A DNA stretch of 64,000 bases, taken from contig CM067356.1 of the NCBI GenBank assembly GCA_034190875.2, forward strand, positions 17,732,206-17,796,205. The letters are read 5' to 3'. Shown in pieces: positions 4,031 to 44,800 of this stretch (position 1 is its first letter; each line of letters starts with the position of its first letter). Origin of the DNA: Urechis unicinctus (taxonomy: Eukaryota; Annelida; Polychaeta; Xenopneusta; Urechidae). Below the pieces are notes generated by a model. It made no database searches, was not told the DNA's origin, and worked only from the letters and a program-made list of their open reading frames with translations. Made by a program: the position numbers and the translations under genes.

Positions 4031-6193
4031 GTATGGCGAAATATAATGAAGTGGCATATCACTAGTTATCAACTCTCTTCGTTGTTAATTGTAGTTAACT
4101 TTCGTTGAGTGAGTGCAATCTGTTCAAATGAACAAAGGGAATGGTTTTGTAACGATTGTTTGCGATGGCTGCCTTAGAGGATGGCTTTACATTTCGCTCC
4201 CTATTATTGTTATTAACCCAATCCCAATTCCAAATGTTCCCTCAACAACCTCATGTGATGATTAGTGTGGGCCCAAAGTATCAGATATGGAAGTATTTGA
4301 TCGCCCATGTGTCATGCTCTGAGCAGCCTGTAAGGCTGGCACGGAAACTGTGTGGATCTTACTGCATAACCGCAATTACTGTCAGCAACATTAAGGAGTT
4401 AAAACGGAAAGGATGGAGGTGGTGCATCAGCAAGGATGATAGCATCACGAGCGTACTTTATTACCACGAGACCAAGTTGCTGTGTTCTTGAGTGAGGCAG
4501 CTTTATACCGAGGCTGCAGTCCTGTTAACAGGCTAAGACGAGTCCACTAAATGAAGATATTCCTGAAGTTAGTTATTATGCTTGTAGAAAAGGTATTGTG
4601 TTTCAATAGGCATTTTCGTTGTTGGTTACTGTGTTGAGAGGGCAATAACCATCTGATAAATGGTTACTTTTCGAAATCACATTATTTTGCTAACAATCGT
4701 GGCGGGAATTGATCTCGGATCTCTACTGATCGACAACAGCATGAACAGCTGTGTACGATTGTTTGGCGTCTTTTACTAGAGGTGCGACTCCACACATACA
4801 AGGGCAAAGTGTATTTCTTGTGTTCTGCGTTCTGAAGTAGAGCTGTGATTGAAACAACATTTCCTGTATTGTTTTCCAATGCAGTTTTGTTATTCAGTTC
4901 AGATACGCTTGTTAATGTGACTCTCGTGTATAGGGGAAAAAACAAATAGATTATTAAGACGTGGCGAGTAGCCGTCGCTTAATTCAACGGCAGTTGCTAA
5001 AAACGAATCAAATGACAGCAAGCACATTCACGTTATCTATGCAGATAATCATACCATACCTTTGACGTGACATTTCGTTTGGTTATACGTGGATGGTTGA
5101 TATCTTACATGATCATGGATAGCAACATCGGCATTTGAAGTGGGTATATATTGGCACGTTTGCTTGCATGTCGTAGTTATCTGCCCGAACCTCGATGATG
5201 AGCGCCTCGACCCCTTGGTGTTGGGCGTCTACCTAATAATAGCTTTCCGTGAATCCAGCTATATGTGAATCACACAGATATGCCACATGATTGTACTGCC
5301 GTCTGGTTGTTGATTGAGATTAAATGTGCATCTATACTGCAGCTTATTCTTTGTCATCAACCGTATTAGTGTTATAGATGGTGATACTCGTCATATAACT
5401 ATTTCACGGCTGCACGAATGAGCTTTATTTTTACTATTAAGACTCTGAATAATAACATGGCAACAGAACAACGACTGTTCCCTGTGAAGCATTCCTACTA
5501 ATGACTGTTTTGAAAGCACCAGCAGCAATAACAATAAATGTCTGCAGATTGCATATGTAGCTGGTACGATGTAAGAGCAAATTTTAGCTTGTGAACCCGT
5601 CAAACGTTTTATTATAATCTTTGCTGCAGACAACGTTGGGCCAGAATAGTGACATGACCGGCTTTGTCTAGTGCACCAGAATATTGATTCCCGCTATGAC
5701 AGCGAGTTATTGCCGTAGAGAGTCACGAGGCGAATGGTCCTAACGATTGACACGAAGTAATCATTTCGCTATAATACGTCGAATATTAAGAAGCAACCTC
5801 ATCACATTCCTTTTGCAGATACCGTCAGGAATTCTCGTTAACGTCCCTAGCACCGACCTTATGGCCGATAGACGTTTCTGCTCTCAAATAAAAAGGCCTA
5901 TTATCAAAATTTGTAATAAACAGCAATACACAGTCTATAATCCACTTCCGGTTAGTGGTGATTACCTGTGTTGCAGGTGGTTTCACCAATAGCGGAAACG
6001 TATCACAAAACAGACAACTAAGGCAAAGTAGCGCATTTTCTCCAAAGTTTATCTTAAAACATCCGCAGGTTTCTCATGAATTGATGCATCATATACGCAT
6101 GCTTATAGGGCGTGGCTTGGATCAACTAAATGATCTATTTTGCATCGGATCAACCGATCATCAGTTATGCATGTTGAGGTAATCTCCAAATTA
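4031..6193. repeat. Direct segmental duplication, copy B
   Basis: Second copy of 1-2199, in the same orientation and offset by 4030 bases at the start and about 3994 at the end because of net deletions. Both boundaries are visible here: it starts at the GTATGGCGAAATAT motif and ends at CTCCAAATTA. The intervening 1.8 kb is not repeated after copy B, so this is not a simple two-unit tandem array within the window. Origin unknown: segmental duplication, a large satellite unit, or two insertions of one non-coding element. Confidence 0.9.
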
Positions 6194-7306: not shown

Positions 7307-7470
7307 GATGGCTGTGTAAGATGTTCCAGCTGTTTACTTTGATGGCTGTGTAAGATGTTCCAGCTGTTTACTTTGATGGCTGTGTAAGATGTTCCAGCTG
7401 TTATCTTTGATGGCTGTGTAAGATGTTCCAGCTGTTATCTTTGATGGATGTGTACGATCCTCCAGCTGCG
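7307..7470. repeat. 34-bp minisatellite, about 5 copies
   Basis: Tandem units start at 7307, 7341, 7375, 7409 and 7443, each beginning GATGG and containing GTAAGATGTTCCAGCTG. The last copy is degenerate. No coding role. Confidence 0.9.
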
Positions 7471-7816: not shown

Positions 7817-13002
<5,186 letters not shown>

Positions 13003-17806: not shown

Positions 17807-17839
<33 letters not shown>

Positions 17840-17863
17840 ACCCCCCCCCCCCCCCCCCCCCCC
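17807..17863. repeat. Poly-C tract interrupted by one A
   Basis: 33 C, one A at 17840, then 23 C. The complementary strand is a G tract able to form a quadruplex, the C strand an i-motif. The overlapping proline-rich frames are artefacts. The exact length is likely polymorphic and sequencing-sensitive. Confidence 0.9.
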
Positions 17864-18866: not shown

Positions 18867-24955
<6,089 letters not shown>

Positions 24956-31359: not shown

Positions 31360-34300
31360 ATGGCGGTGAACGTTTCGATGAATCTTCGCAACCACCTCAT
31401 CAAATATTGTCTTTGTTCACGCCAACCTAGAAGTATTTTTTCACCTAGGTATGTTCATATCAATTCCTCAAAGCATGGGGCAGCTTCTTCTGTTTCCTTA
31501 GACGAAGTCGATGTGAAAAGAAGTAACAATCCACCAAACAAGCTGCATCAAGTTGACGATCCTGCCTTCAAGCGAATTGACCTCACTTTCGAAAATGCAT
31601 CTGAAGCTTATAAAAGTCGTACAAACTCAGAGTTGCTGCGAGCGTACATGGTCTTCCAGCTCTGCTCTGTTAATAAATTGGTGGAAAAGAACAAGGAGGT
31701 GAGTGTCATAAAATGTAATGAAGTTGACACGTGTCTGATATTTTTGTAAACACGTGACGACGATGCTTGTGGCTGCAGCGCAGGTGCTGACCAGCCTCCT
31801 GACATCGTTGCCATGGTCACGATATCTCGAGGCTTTCACACAGTTGTATAGTAATCTTATCGGGCCATTGACATTGAAGTCCTTATCAGCTGATTGGGAG
31901 CCCCAATCAGTTGTGATATCTCTCCACTTAATCTGATAAGGAGATGGTCTATTATGTATGTACTCAGCCAATCATGTTCAAGTTATACATTAGTTACTTC
32001 CCTTGTTTATAGGGCTACAAAGTGGTGTCGTCATAATTCCATCTGAACCCACAAACCCCCCTCCCCCCCCTCACCCCTCCTGATGCCCCTGCAAAAAGGT
32101 GTGAAAATAGCAAGATTGGCTCCAACAACATGGGGTCTCTTTAGGTTTACTATACAAGATAAGAACCTTTAACGCCTTGTATTTTGAAACGTTTCTACCT
32201 GATAAATCATCTGTATGTTGTAGACGCAGTCATTCTGTAAATATTCATGTAAATTTGATATTCAACCTATTCATCATCCCTGAGATATTACCTCCCTGAC
32301 TTGACTAGCATGCTACAGTGAAAAGGTTCACAATGTATTGTACTCCATGAAATCAGAGGGAATTCTTTTCAAAGAGATAACAAAAAAGACTGAAGCTTCC
32401 CTGCATTAATTTACGAGGTCACAATGGTGGCAGAGGTTATGCGGGCTTATTCTGAGCAGGCCCTCGGGACAGTGTATATGCTATATACGCACTCTCAGTT
32501 TAACATCAGGACAGTATATACAAGTTTATATGCAATATACGCAGTATCAGTTTAACATTAAGGTTTACTCTTGTGTCCTCAATTTAACCAGTATTTGATG
32601 AAGGAACACTTTCACCGTAAACAATCAACCCCAAAAGATCCACAATTAGTCATTGCAAAGTCTGGTTGTAAAACAGTTTAATTACTACCGTTATATGTAA
32701 AATTGTTCTTTGTAATTAATATCTCCTCACATCATTGGCTTGCACTGCAGATGATGACATTGGCTCGGCGTGTGTTTGGAAAACAGCTCTTTGAGCGCCT
32801 TATGAAGGCTACATTTTATGGTCAGTTTGTGGCTGGGGAGGATGAAATCAGAATTCAGCCTGTGGCCAAGAAGAACCGAGGTTATGGAGTGAAATCCATC
32901 CTGGATTACAGCGTGGAGATGGATCTGAGCCGAGAGCAAGCTGTGGATGTGGAGATGGAGTGAGTGTTGTGATAATCTGGCTATAGCAAGCAACTGGTTA
33001 TGATAAACTCATGTGGTTTTATCATGGCTGTGGTTATGCTGCGTAGTTAACGTTATCCTTCCCCTGTGTCACATGTATTAAAACTTTATGTAACCTGGTG
33101 TTAAAATAGGCCCAAAGCTCACTATGAGTTAGAGGCTTGTTGCAAGCAACCCAATAACATACCAGTCATCTTCCATCATTGCAATAGTCAGGTTGTTATT
33201 ATGTTCTTCTCATGTTATGAGTGTGGTTTAAAGGCTTGTGTGTATTTACCTGTTTGCACCTACAGGGGTAGTGGAACTGCGGTGGAAGTGGAAAATCATG
33301 GTGAGTTGATGTTGTGATAATAAATACATTTCAGGTGAGAAAAGGAATGTTCTAAGTTTACAGGCCTGTAGATAAGATTAGTCAGCTTGCCTGTATATAA
33401 GATAAGTTTTACTGGCCTGTATATATTATTAGATAAGCCTGTAAATAATATTAGTTTACTGGCCTATATATGACATTAGTTTGCTGGCCTGTAAATAAGA
33501 TCATTTTTTTTACTGGCCTGTAAATATGATCAATTTACTGGCCTGTAAATAAGATTAGTTTACTGGCCTGTATATAATATTTGTTTACTGGCCTGTTTGT
33601 AATATAAGTTTACTGGCCTGTTTATTATATAAGTTTACTGGCAAGTATATGACATTAGTATACTGGCCTGTATTTAATATTTGTTCACTGGCCTGTTTAT
33701 AAGATTAGTTTACTGGCCTGTTTATAATATGAGATGATACTGGCCTGTTTATAATATTAGTTTGCTGGCCTGTATATAAGATTAGTTTACTGGCCTTTAT
33801 ATAAGATTAGTTTACTGGCCTGTTTATAATATGAGGTGATACTGGCCTATATTTGACCCACCTTGTTGGTCCCCTTTTTTCGTCAGAGGGAGAAGAGACA
33901 CGGTTCCGTGCCCATCGGGAGTTTGGTGACCGGCGTGAGAAAGTCACCAGTGCTCGGACCTATTTCTACAAGGATGAGAAGATGTGCGATGAGAATCTGA
34001 AGCACTTCCTGGCTGGAATTGATGCTGTATCAGGTGGGTAGCTGGTATTGATGCTGTGTCAGGTGGTATTGATGCTGTGTCAGGTGGCATTGATGCTGTG
34101 TCAGGTGGTATTGATGTTGTGTCAGGTAGGTAGCTGGCATTGATGCTGTGTCAGGTAGGTAGCTGGTATTGATGCTGTGTTTGGTGGGTGGCTGATATTG
34201 ATGCCGTGTCAGGTAGGTAGGTCGTATTGATTCCGTGTCAGGTGGCATTGATGCTGTGTCAGGTGGGTAGGTCGTATTGATTCCGTGTCAGGTGGTATTG

Positions 34301-37300
34301 ATGCTGTGTCAGGTAGGTAGCTGGTATTGATGCCATGTCAGGTCAGTAGCTGGTATTGATGCCATGTCAGGTCAGTAGCTGGTATTGATGCTGTGTCATG
34401 TGGCAATGATGATGTGTCAGGTGGGTAGCTGGTATTGATGCTGTGTCAGGTCAGTAGCTGGTATTGATGCTGTGTCAGGTAGGTAGCTGGTATTGATGCC
34501 ATGTCAGGTCAGTAGCTGGTATTGATGCCGTGTCAGGTGGCATTGATGCTGTGTCAGGTGGGTAGGTCGTATTGATTCCGTGTCAGGTGGTATTGATGCG
34601 TGTCAGGTAGGTAGCTGGTATTGATGCCATGTCAGGTCAGTAGCTGGTATTGATGCCGTGTCAGGTGGCATTGATGCTGTGTCAGGTGGGTATTGATTCC
34701 GTGTCAGGTGTATTGATGCCATGTCAGGTAGGTAGTGGTATTGATGCCATGTCAGGTCATGTGCAGTGTCAGGTGGCATTGATGCTGTGTCAGGTGGGTA
34801 GGTTGTATTGATTCCAAGTCAGGTGGTATTGATGCCATGTCAGGTCAGTAGCTGGTATTGATGCTGTGTCAGGGTAGCTGGTATTGATGCCATGTCAGGT
34901 GGGTGGCTGGTGTTGATGCTATGTCAGGTAGGTAGCTGGTATTGATGCTGTGTCAGGTCAGTAGCTGGTATTGATGCCATGTCAGGTCAGTAGCTGGTAT
35001 TGATGCCGTGTCAGGTGGCATTGATGCTGTGTCAGGTGGGTAGCTGGTATTGATGCTGTGTCAGGTGGGTTGCTGGTATTGATGCTGTGTCAGGTGAGTA
35101 GCTGGTATTGATGCCATGTCAGGTGGGTGGCTGGTATTAATGCCATGTCAGGTGGGTGGCTGGTATTGATGCTGTGTCAGGTGGGTAGCTGGATTGATGC
35201 TGTGTCAGGTGGGTTGCTGGATTGATGCTGTGTCAGGTTCTTGGCTGGTTTTAATGCTGTGCTAGGTGGTTAGCTAGTATTGATGCTGTGCTAGGTGGGT
35301 AGCTGGGCCATCTTTTGCCTCTACACCTGTCAGTTTTCGATTAGTGGTTGAGACTGTGTCATCACATTGAGTAAGTCTGGTGAAAAATGAGTGTACCTGT
35401 TCTGATACAGGTTGTTGTCTGCTTTCAGGGGCTACCAATGCTACTGGCTTTGCTGCTGTCAAACTGACTGCTCTGGGCCGACCACAGTTTTTGGTATTTT
35501 GTTTTCTACAGTATGTTAAATGGTTTACGGGTATAAAAAACATGGAAATATACTATATAACTAGTCAAAATACAAATTAAATAAGGAGAAGACAAAATTC
35601 CCAACTTAACTGTGTTTCTGTTGTTTAATGCATCATATAACAATTACTTCTATCAATCTCTTAAGATTTTGTTGAATTGATATGAATTAATGTGGATTTC
35701 ATTGTTGTGTTACAGCTACAATTATCGGAGGTTCTTGCTCGTGTGAGGGAGTACTTTTCGCGCCTCTCAGCTGGCTACGGCACTGGGACCCTACAGAAGG
35801 CGGACTTTGAGAGACATTTAAAGAGTTTCAACCTGGGACGTGAGGAACGTCAACAGTGGTTCACCATCCTCGACATCAGCCAGGATGGGTATGTGGTTAT
35901 ATGACCCCATACGAGGTGGTTATGTGGGTGGCAAAATGACTCCATATGTTGTTGTTATATGTGTTATGTAACACCATGTGATTAGATAGGTGGTTATATG
36001 ATCCATATTTTGCAGTTATAAGAATGGTTATATGATTGATCACACAAGATGTGGTTAAATGAGTTGTTGCCCCTCAGTCCCTGCATGTATCCATCATCTT
36101 ACATCATGTTCTCCCCAGACAAACTGGGTCACAAAAGCCAGACATGCTTCTATGAATGTCATTCCAGATATTTTCTATCAAATTATAGCATCATTAAGTG
36201 ATTCAACATGATGAGAAATATATGTTTGTGTGTGTGTGTGTTTTGTACATAGAGAAATAGACTTATTGGACTGGCACAATCTACTTGAGGTGCATGTGAG
36301 CCTGGCCAAATTGCTCTATATTCCTAACCTCCAGGTCAGTTACACCATGACTGGGCGGTCGATTGAGCCAAATTGGAATGTGAATTGAATGAATCAATGA
36401 AGAAGTCTGTCATGCTGTGACAATTGTGTTTGTCTGTTGCTGTAACAGACAGGGAAACTTGAGCCTCTGGTGCGCCCTCTGGAGGCACTGGAAGAGGAAC
36501 AGATGAGGAACATGTTGGTCAGAGTCGACACCATTGCTCAGGTAATTATCTCACCTGTTCCACTCATCAGGTAATTATCTCACCTGTTCCACTTGTCAGG
36601 TAATTATCTCACCTGTTCCATTTGTCAGTTAACCAGCTTCTGTTAATTAGCACCAGAAGTGGGATTTGTAATTTGCTGGTTACAAAAAGGTCTGCTGGTT
36701 ACAGAAAGGTCACTGGTTTAAATCCCGCTGCGTTCTTGATATGGACGGGCAAATAGCATGTTGGCCACGTGGAACCCATTATCTGTTCATCTCCATACTC
36801 ATTGGTCCAAGTCACAGGAGTTGGCAGAAATGTAATGAGTGTTGATGTGTTGTTGTGCAGCACGCCAAAGAGAAGGACGTGAGGGTGATGATTGATGCTG
36901 AGCAGACCTACTTCCAGCCGGCCATCTCACGTCTGTGTATGGAGATGATGCGCAAGTATAACCGCGAGAAAGCCCTCATCTTCAACACCTACCAGTGCTA
37001 TCTCAAGGTAGCTTAACGACCCTCATGTCACACTGGCTTGTGGCTACAACATGTATTTATTGATGTGTAAGTGATGTGGCAGTGACTGTAGTGTTTGTCT
37101 TGTATCTCCAGGATACTTACAGCATGATCACCACAGACTTTGCTCTGTCCAAGCGTGAGAACTTCTACTTCGGCGCAAAGCTCGTGAGGGGCGCCTACTT
37201 GGAGCAGGTGCAGCTCGCATTCAACGCCCATTAATTCTTGCCTATTTCACAGTTTATATCGTCTACAGAGGAGTAGTCTAGAATCTCATCATTTGATCGG

Positions 37301-38419
37301 GGTTCATTTGGTGGGTGCTTGTGGGTGTATAGAGGCTGTGACCTCTTGTTGACCTGACCCAGTAGCATGTCTGAGTGTATGGTGTGCAGGAGCGTGAACG
37401 AGCAGCAACACTGGGTTACGAGGATCCCATCAACCCGTCGTACGACGCCACCACAGCGATGTATGAGCGCGTCCTCACCGAGTGCATGGAGCAGATACAA
37501 CAGCGACCACGAGGGGAGATTGCTATCATGGTGGCCAGTCACAATGAGAACACTGTCCGCTTCACCCTCAACAAGTACGTACATTCACCGTCTCCAGCCA
37601 CCTCCTTGTTTATTATGATTCAAGTCAGCATTCATTCATTGTTCAAATGTCTATAGTATCACATATGACTGTAAGTATATCCATAGTGAAGTCACTATAA
37701 CTTGGCTTTGATCTGTTTACGGTACTTCTATCTGTATCAATCGAACTCCTGTCCGGTCCTGAACCACCTGTAGTTGTGTATGTTTATGGTTGTGTAGAAT
37801 GCAGGAGTATGACATCCACTCCACAGACAAACTCATCTGCTTTGGGCAACTGCTTGGGATGTGTGATCAAGTCAGCTTCTCTCTCGGTAATTCCCATTTA
37901 CCTCATAGCTCCTCCCATTTACTGTCTCTATCATTGTTAAATGCCAGCTCAGCTCATAGCTCCTCCCCTTTATATGAACCTTAATATTTAAAATTCCCTC
38001 TGCCATGCCACATAGTGTTTCAGACGGAGATTCTGTGGACGGTTAACAGTCTAGTGAACTCTAGTGACCTCTAGTGCTCAGGAGCTAACCTTTACTCCAC
38101 CCCTATCTATCACTACTGTTCGGGTGGTGTCAAACCTGTCGTTTTATTTCTCAACGTGTTTTTGTGATTATTGTGTACAGGCCAAGCGGGGTACTCTGTG
38201 TACAAGTACGTACCATACGGACCAGTGGAGGAGGTCCTTCCGTACTTGTCCCGGAGAGCCATTGAAAACAGGGGCATGCTTGCCAAAGTGCAGAAGGAAA
38301 AACGCTTGTTAAGAAGTGAACTCTTCAGGCGCTTGAAGTCCTTCCAGTGGTTCTATAAACCCACTCCCCCTGAAGTGTCTCCCATTGATGAACTGGCGGC
38401 CGCTGGTCAGAAGCAGTGA
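31360..38419 (+). CDS. PRODH: Proline dehydrogenase, mitochondrial
   Basis: FAD enzyme of the inner mitochondrial membrane that oxidises L-proline to pyrroline-5-carboxylate, the first step of proline catabolism. Coding exons: 31360-31698, 32751-32959, 33266-33300, 33887-34033, 35429-35493, 35716-35888, 36253-36334, 36449-36541, 36861-37007, 37112-37207, 37390-37574, 37798-37886, 38181-38419. All phases agree; 632 aa, near the ~600 of human PRODH. The start is the first ATG in its frame (AACATGGCGG). The basic N-terminus fits a targeting peptide. Recognised motifs: [83 protein letters not shown] and [20 protein letters not shown]. An EF-hand-like loop DISQDGEIDLLD spans exons 6-7. Minisatellites fill introns 3, 4 and 8. 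Confidence 0.97.
33340..33850 (+). repeat. About 25-bp minisatellite in PRODH intron 3
   Basis: About 20 degenerate units built on TTTACTGGCCTGTATATAA and AGATTAG, filling most of the intron up to about 35 bp before exon 4. Confidence 0.92.
34034..35300 (+). repeat. 21/29-bp minisatellite made from the PRODH exon 4 splice donor
   Basis: Exon 4 ends ATTGATGCTGTATCAG and the intron begins GTGGGTAGCTG. The array starts in the first intron base and repeats GGTATTGATGCTGTGTCAG / GTGGGTAGCT for about 1.25 kb, with several dozen units of about 20 or 29 bp. Each unit re-creates the exon end plus a GT donor. In frame, reading past the true donor meets TAG within three codons, so use of a later donor would truncate the protein. 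Confidence 0.95.
36542..36628 (+). repeat. 29-bp repeat (3 copies) starting at the PRODH exon 8 donor
   Basis: Exon 8 ends GCTCAG at 36541. The intron then reads three consecutive 29-bp units of GTAATTATCTCACCTGTTCC plus nine bases ending TCAG. The first two are followed by GT, so each re-creates a TCAG/GTAATT donor. Confidence 0.95.
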
Positions 38420-41806: not shown

Positions 41807-44800
41807 TCATACAGTTTTTTTGTACTCTATTCTTTCGACCTTGACCTCATCCCCGACTAGCTGGTAGACGTAGGCCACTACGGTAGACTGCTGGATGTCA
41901 AGCAGGACGAATGATGGGTGCACATTGCTGTTAACACAAGTCATTCACAGGTAGAGAATATCAGGAAAAGTTGACATATATACTGGTGATTTTCAACAAA
42001 AGAATAAATGTTTATGGAGGAAGGACAAAAACAGACAAAGATAGAGCAGACATACGTGTCAAGGGCATTGTAAGCACCGGTGGCGGATCCAGGATTGATG
42101 TAAAATTTGTTCTCATGCTCAAAAGCTTCAAATTTGTGGGTGTGTCCACTGATGAGGATATCTACGTCCAGCTGCCTCTGAACAATAGCCAGACTCTCCA
42201 TGTCACCCCATGGCACCACCTGGTGGCCATGACATAAACCGATGCGGAACTGACCCACGGTTACGACCTTCTGCTCTGGATAATTCATGTTCTGTAACAG
42301 GCAGCTTCGTTAAACAACTGGCGGTTAACTGATCCTACACCTGTCTGTACGTCTCTGTACTGAATTGATTAAGATGTCTCAGTGGTTTAATGAGAATAAA
42401 TACACAACAAAAGTTGAAAGCAAGTTAAACTTGTAATGGAAACAAACTAGTCTACAACATGTATCAACTCTTAGTTTTTATGCCAAATATTCCAAACTAA
42501 CCTCATCAAAATCCCCTCTCACTACATGGACATCACTTGCTAGCGTCTTCAGATAATCAAATGATTCCTTTGTGCAGAGATTGCCGGTACATAGGATGTG
42601 CTGGATTTTGCCTGGCACCAGCAGCTTCTTGAACTTAGCGGGTACCGTGCTACATCGGTGTGGGATGTGAAGGTCACCGAGAACTAACACCAACTGAAAT
42701 CAGCAACAACTATACAACATGCAACTTGGAAAAGCATTTTGCAAGCAGAAATACGTCTTACTTTGTTTAACTCCAATTACCTTTGCAGCAGTATAAAATA
42801 TCAATGTTCACAGATTGTTTAAGTATTAACTTCCAACTTTGACTCGCAGACTTAATTCATTCTAATAGTACATATGTTTTGTTTTGTTTTACAATCCAAA
42901 GTTTAAAACTTAAAGAGTAACTTAATATTGTAACCAAATATTCCAACAGCACAGGGTGAACTTATATGAATACTAAAATGTCCCATACTGCCTGATTAAC
43001 CAAATAATTCAGCGAAAGTAACAAAGGTACTCAGTTAACCCCACATATCCTAATACAGAAAATAAATTCAACTACACCTGTTATCACTGGACCTTACTTA
43101 TCCTCAAAAGCACAACTTAATTGGTGACCCATCCCAAAGCTTCTGATGCTCAGGTTGTGGTTTCTATTATTTCAAACTCACATGTAAGTTGTCAAATAGG
43201 CTACCTAAGCTTTCTTCCTAATACATATTACATACACATGGCAGAGAATAGACCAACATAATATAGGAAATGCTTGTTACTGTGACATCATGAATAATTA
43301 ATTAATTATTATGTGTGAATAACAACATCATATCCCTCAGCAAAAAGAGGTATGAATCGGATTTCACAGTTAATCAATGACCTGGATTTCTTTCAGAAGT
43401 TCACAGCAAATAAATTTTGGAGACAACCTTGTAAGCAAGAACAGATATTGTTGTTGCTTGGTTTGGTGGTGAGGTAATTAGTAATGAGGTGTGTGTTATG
43501 GTTTGGTGTTCCTCTGTAGGCTATCCAGCTAGTTGCCTGCAATTTTCTATACGCACAGTTAGTGCAAAATGGAATCTTCAGACATCCAACTCAGCTAGGA
43601 CTGGCATATTTATACCTCAATTGAAAAACTAGTTCTTAAACTAGTGCCTCTCTATTCCAATGGGCTTACCGGGTATATGTCCTGATCCTAGTCTCTTGTT
43701 TTCCAGAGCAAACCAGTTTATTCCAGTCATTCCAGAGCAAACCAGTTTATTCCAGTCATTCCAGAGCAAACCAGTTTATTCCAGTCATTCCAGAGCAAAC
43801 CAGTTTATTCCAGTCATTCCAGAGCAAACCAGTTTATTCCAGTCATTCCAGAGCAAACCAGTTTATTCCAGTCATTCCAGAGCAAACCAGTTTATTCCAG
43901 TCATTCTCTACACCAACACTCCCATACTAATTTTGGGGGAAAAAATGGAAAGCCCAATGAAGTATAAAATCTCATTTCTACAATTTAAGTCCTCCATGTG
44001 GGATGCTGGAGCAAGAAGAGTGGCTATCAAGATCAAAGCTAGGTTTGATAATTGAAACCTTGTTGCCTATATCTTACAAGATTCTTCTGCTGGTTAGGTT
44101 TTTACCCTACTGAATATGATCAAGCTCCTAGAAACTCATGGAAATTATTCTCACAAGCAAAAGAAAAGAATGATGGTAAGTATTAGCAAAGGAAATACTA
44201 TAAAATTATCGATAGCGGGAATCACTATGAGTTACAGTTATCATTGTCAGAAATCGCTATCAATGCATAGCATCAAGACGCCACCATCACAATGCATTGC
44301 TGTTTCCATCTATCGCCACATCCCTATATACAGTCCAACCCAATATGCCACATTGATCAAAAGAATGAGATTTTACGCCAAATTCAATCATGTTTATTTC
44401 ATTATCTTAATATACAGCTCACCTATGACTGCAAGGGCCCATTTCTTTATGGAAATCTCAGTTATACCCATTGATCGGGCAACATTATGATTCACACTTG
44501 GTAACATGGTTGTGCATAACTAAAACAATGCAGGAACTAACCCAAGTCTGACATAGAAGAAATACTGCCCTATAATGTTGTGGGAGGGAGGGTTTCAAAT
44601 ATGTATTTGTAAATCTTTATTCAACAAGATCAGGTGCAGTTTAAAAAGACAAGCCTAGCAACTCCCCATCTAGGCAAGGCACTCGCCCCTGGTGTTTTTA
44701 TAATCTGATGCCACCTTAGGGGCGAGGGTCCGTATGGCAGAATCTTTTGAGTTATAAGCAAATTTGCTCCTTCTCGCAATGCAGACAAGGGACAGTTTAA

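Follow-up and report, generated by a model that had tools for sequence, protein, structure and literature searches.

A mirage-type minisatellite across a splice donor of the proline dehydrogenase gene of Urechis unicinctus

Results

Genes and repeats of the window

The window analysed here is a stretch of 64,000 nucleotides of the Urechis unicinctus genome (assembly GCA_034190875.2, contig CM067356.1, positions 17,732,206 to 17,796,205 of the forward strand), in which tblastn with human queries located three genes: an ERK-type MAP kinase gene (about 18867-24189, + strand), a proline dehydrogenase gene, PRODH (about 31588-38362, + strand), and a VPS29 gene (about 42693-41816, - strand). Exon edges were drawn from these alignments to the human proteins and from inspection of the AG and GT dinucleotides. 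In Pfam, Pro_dh matches one PRODH exon (E=1.6e-10) and Metallophos_2 matches VPS29 (E=1.4e-13), and one ERK exon compared with the kinase models gave matches under the model cut-offs. A PDB search with one PRODH exon as query gave 0 matches, and an RNA family search gave 0 matches at gathering scores.

The PRODH exon that concerns us is the third found by homology (tblastn; 33887..34033, + strand), with acceptor ...TCGTCAG and donor CAG|GTGGGT. It terminates CTGGAATTGATGCTGTATCAG|GTGGGTAGCTGG, 34033 being the end of the exon and 34034 the first intron base. The next exon (35429..35493, + strand) follows the acceptor TGCTTTCAG|GGGC, and a splice from 34033 to 35429 leaves the frame open and yields a protein that resembles human PRODH.

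Minisatellite loci with a period of at least 10 number 27 and cover 8.3% of the 64000-base window (TRF rows merged by hand). The window also holds a 2.2-kb direct repeat (1-2199 and 4031-6193), the two copies of which are 96.7% identical and start 4.03 kb apart, and an almost pure C run of 57 bases at 17807-17863.

Anatomy of the main PRODH donor array

A minisatellite built from the PRODH splice donor had been predicted at this exon, and the anatomy of its units bears this out: a GT directly follows 48 of the 49 unit ends, the authentic donor counted. TRF reports this main array (34012-35306) as a single one, with period 29, 48.2 copies, 75% matches and 14% indels. By wraparound alignment it is made up, on the + strand, of an exonic block of 22 bases (34012..34033), which is its first unit, of 48 intronic units of 17-29 bp (34034-35294) with 47 decoy GT donors, and of a closing partial unit of 12 bases (35295-35306). 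It was expected to begin at the first intron base; its actual start, 34012, lies 22 bases inside the exon. The full unit of 29 bp comprises 21 exonic and 8 intronic bases, so that the expected donor GT in the units held for 48 of the 49 ends and the expected length of some 16 copied exon bases did not. Most units measure 29 bp or 21 bp, with a minority of 17-28 bp, and the 21-bp units lack 8 bases beside the donor and retain the GT.

Distinct sequences account for 34 of the 48 intronic units, and a search for exact repeats of three- to ten-unit blocks found a single block, of three units, present twice. The tail of the array, GTGGGTAGCTGG, abuts the unique intron sequence GCCATC; were the array taken out, what remained would be GCTGG, 24 bases, GCTGG.

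Over 22 common bases, the exonic unit and the array consensus disagree at just two places, 34017 and 34029, each a third codon position. The changes are synonymous, and either version codes AGIDAVS. In column tallies made on ungapped unit ends, where deletion-bearing units stand slightly out of register, none of the 48 intronic units has either the A that the exon carries at -17 or the one that it carries at -5, and GIDAVS is still encoded by only 20 of them. As to a possible escape of border units from homogenisation, the exonic unit has its two private bases, and at the other border the two final full units agree with the consensus at 21/29 and 25/29; interior 29-base units match it down to 23/29. 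The differences between exon and array are as expected if the exon is held by coding constraint and is not overwritten from the array, two differences being few.

Donors and reading frame in the main array

The ends of the units (n=49) read CAG|GTGGGT 13 times, the authentic donor included, CAG|GTAGGT and CAG|GTCAGT 8 times each, CAG|GTGGCA 6 times and CAG|GTGGTA 5 times, with nine other types once each, one of them without GT. The original prediction named GTGGGT and GTAGGT, both of which are present, but the set proves wider than these two.

Donor strength and accessibility were scored for the main array alone, the position weights being vertebrate frequencies and not those of the host. On this scale the authentic donor, CAG|GTGGGT, scores 5.47, and its U1 duplex is computed at -13.1 kcal/mol; 21 of the 47 decoys equal or exceed this score, and for 16 of the 47 the computed duplex with U1 is equally stable or more so. 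The decoy at 35094..35099 (+ strand), after position 35093, reads CAG|GTGAGT, matches CAG|GTRAGT and tops both scores (8.02 and -13.9), outdoing the authentic donor. With the same vertebrate weights, decoys that equal or surpass the authentic donor in score reach 16.5 per kb in the array, as against 0.23 such sites per kb on the + strand of the 60.3 kb of window outside it. Several dozen near-identical competing donors are thus present, as anticipated. The GC skew of the bin 34001-36000 is +0.377.

The predicted probability that the donor 9-mer is unpaired is 0.0014 for the authentic site; over the later ends (n=48) the median is 0.014. An RNA structure that sequesters the decoys is unsupported, 33 of these 48 ends being predicted more accessible than the authentic donor.

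When the 49 ends are joined in turn to the exon at 35429, the authentic donor alone gives an open frame, in line with what had been predicted for the first donor, and the remaining 48 all read GG*. This is because an in-frame TAG (34039..34041, + strand), which ends any frame extended to a later donor, is the third codon of the extension. The early stop therefore stems from the first intron bases, common to all later ends, and not from each unit.

Companion arrays in PRODH and ERK

A second PRODH donor array (36538..36632, + strand) has a 29-bp unit in 3.3 copies and starts at the TCAG that closes the exon, 4 bases from its end. Two of its decoys match the authentic CAG|GTAATT across all 9 bases, and an early stop follows from 2/2 GT decoys. 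In the ERK gene it is an acceptor that is repeated: the array at 23362..23716 (+ strand), with units of ~38 bp holding ...GATAG|CTCTGGA, reaches 11 bases into the exon starting at 23706. The acceptor motif is present in nine copies spaced 34-45 bp, the last being the authentic one by homology; of the eight copies upstream, seven have AG and one AA, and all eight (8/8) would lead to an early stop. Judged by eye, the border repeats of these two smaller arrays (TCAG and CTG) look weaker than the GCTGG of the main array.

The spans of ERK and PRODH hold five minisatellites, three of which straddle splice sites; those at 33355-33852 and 36674-36718 do not. The former (+ strand) occupies the preceding PRODH intron and ends 34 bases before exon 33887-34033, and its 25-bp unit is by eye not a copy of the edge of that exon. 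The exon is thus sandwiched between this minisatellite, 34 bases upstream, and the donor array that starts inside it.

Placement of arrays relative to splice sites

Enrichment of copies at splice sites was not found: a close copy, defined as at least 20 of 24 bases within 1.5 kb, exists for 3 of 37 splice-site 24-mers and for 8.7% of 4000 random control positions (P=0.64), and with a looser cut-off (at least 17 of 24) the figures are 4/37 and 14%, the last PRODH acceptor having been placed at 38179 for 38180, one base off. When the 27 loci are placed uniformly against 41 mapped sites, of which four in VPS29 are unrefined tblastn edges and among which the first two PRODH exons are omitted, a mean of 1.8 arrays straddle a site, as against 3 observed (P=0.27); exonic overlap by arrays amounts to 37 bp where a mean of 245 is expected (P=0.13), and no exon is covered whole where the expected mean is 1.1. 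For the five arrays of the ERK and PRODH spans, with the first two PRODH exons counted (first exon start 31330, end 31700, estimated), uniform placement gives a mean of 2.6 straddling arrays and P(3 or more)=0.56. For the same five arrays with exon overlap limited to 25 bases, a limit chosen after seeing the data, the mean is 0.38 and P=0.004, three straddling arrays being more than such exon-sparing placement would give. All these counts are small. Since three straddling arrays are close to the uniform expectation, we see no sign of splice sites attracting arrays.

Discussion

Minisatellites that lie across exon-intron boundaries are known in amphioxus as mirages. They were described in Adh3 and in the globin genes BflGb6 and BflGb9 (PMC3087553), and PMC3902484 adds PGBD5 and troponin C. 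The first, a globin paper of 2010, reports mirages at 5' and 3' boundaries and notes their instability in length and a model of intron gain; the second cites the Adh and troponin C mirages as regularly spliced and infers correct splicing for PGBD5, for which one gene prediction, unsupported by ESTs, treats repeats as an exon. The main PRODH array is a mirage by its structure. As in amphioxus, the unit spans the boundary (21 exon and 8 intron bases) and one copy is authentic, most units keep their splice signals (48/49 ends with GT), and donor and acceptor edges are both affected among the arrays of the window. The units of 21 and 29 bp fall within the range of 10-72 bp given for the Adh3 mirage (PMC3087553). 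The array is longer than the globin and PGBD5 cases compared, with 48 intronic units as against 6 and 3 in the two haplotypes of BflGb6 (PMC3087553) and 2 or 7 and 3 or 6 in two assemblies of PGBD5 (PMC3902484). Literature queries worded without the gene names returned no published description of the PRODH and ERK arrays.

Tandem duplication of AGGT-bearing segments is also a proposed source of new introns, as reviewed in PMC3443670. The PRODH array resembles such events in that most unit ends carry AG|GT, usable in principle as donor or acceptor; unlike them, it shows no evident new intron or exon and, in the homology model, which needs the exon-bounding donor and acceptor alone, it lies inside one intron and is removed whole. 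Some intronic VNTRs are reported to alter splicing, the ABCA7 VNTR (PMC5954066) being an example. Both it and the main PRODH array are intronic tandem repeats in protein-coding genes; the PRODH unit is itself a splice donor.

We propose, with a probability of about 0.85, that the main array is of the mirage type, that it arose by repeated tandem duplication across the splice donor and that the site bounding the exon is still the one spliced. Minisatellites are recognised to arise through slippage between direct repeats of such short length, and in PRODH slippage or unequal exchange would have taken place between the GCTGG direct repeats (5 bases) that bound the 29-base segment 34012-34040, one copy of the pair lying in the exon and the other at the far end of the array. 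The GCTGG border repeat is short and may perhaps be a partial last unit. After this seeding, one lineage of units would have dropped 8 bases before further expansion. Splicing would still take the outermost, exon-bounding site and the copies would be removed with the intron, which would be why the array persists. By analogy with the haplotypes of Adh3 and the globins (PMC3087553), it is plausible that the length of the main array is unstable between alleles.

What, then, would single out one site among so many? The exon-bounding site is probably the one used in all three arrays, because it alone yields the conserved protein. Strength fails to explain this choice in the main array, many decoys there being equal or stronger, and accessibility, as predicted, would likewise fail. 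A rule by which the first site wins does not hold for all three arrays because the presumed ERK acceptor is the last transcribed: the order of transcription would speak for the authentic site in both donor arrays and against it in the acceptor array. A rule by which the site bounding the exon wins (exon definition) would fit all three. While choice among near-identical splice sites is usually studied with engineered minigenes, nature offers here a test with 48 GT donors in PRODH and nine acceptor copies (eight of them AG) in ERK, the frame being open in the PRODH and ERK arrays from the exon-bounding site only. If RNA confirms clean splicing, that site wins whatever its strength and order. It is tempting to speculate, although we hold this as tentative, that in these three arrays of two genes proximity to the exon prevails over strength, accessibility and order, that mirages are natural experiments in splice-site choice and that their occurrence in a host other than a lancelet points to a wider phenomenon.

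The same arrangement can be read in other ways. The original prediction saw a plausible hotspot of aberrant or allele-dependent splicing. On such a reading a measurable share of transcripts would use decoys and be sent to nonsense-mediated decay, allele length tuning the output of PRODH. The 47 decoy donors, 21 of them equal to or above the real one in score, and the early stops from all later ends are what such a hotspot would have, and cryptic use of the copies was raised as a possibility in amphioxus (PMC3087553). However, the Adh3 data and the globin RT-PCR in the same source are reported to show regular splicing, even if products removed by decay could escape such assays, so that decoys may be used at a low rate. 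The hotspot is unsupported in PRODH, and we judge it unlikely because amphioxus mirages are described as leaving splicing undisturbed. One may also imagine that the array is of use, its successive U1-binding sites near the head of the intron aiding exon definition or blocking premature polyadenylation. The excess of strong decoys in the array (16.5 as against 0.23 per kb elsewhere on the + strand) and the positive GC skew around it (+0.377 in the bin 34001-36000) would agree with this; yet the density of donors follows from the unit itself being a donor, and donor types differ between units, some being weak, so that no selection for strength is visible. We give such a positive role hardly any credence.

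The array might finally owe its form to the assembly, through a wrong copy number or a false duplication. Tandem arrays are prone to misassembly. The draft-genome copy of one amphioxus mirage is called aberrantly assembled in the legend of Additional file 4 of PMC3087553, and the copy number given here is that of a single assembly. The 34 distinct sequences among the 48 intronic units are nevertheless not expected from simple false duplication, and we consider an artefact very improbable.

As to the occurrence of arrays on exon edges, the most economical and likely reading is that minisatellites arise without regard to exons, are selected out of exons and survive at exon edges as their extra copies become intronic; arrays would be tolerated there since the splice site in use is the one that bounds the exon. 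A shortage of exonic overlap is to be expected on this reading, and the overlap observed deviates that way but falls short of significance (P=0.13). For mirages to occur, a minisatellite-dense region and selection against exonic arrays may thus be enough, with no mechanism aimed at splice sites.

Other minisatellites of the window deserve mention. The consensus units of those at 7307-7468 and 11841-12172 share, by eye, the donor-like GTGTAAGA; both lie where no gene was mapped, and they are possible further boundary arrays. Past the mapped 5' end of VPS29, at 43701-43906, a 29-bp minisatellite of 7.1 copies with 100% matches looks recently expanded.
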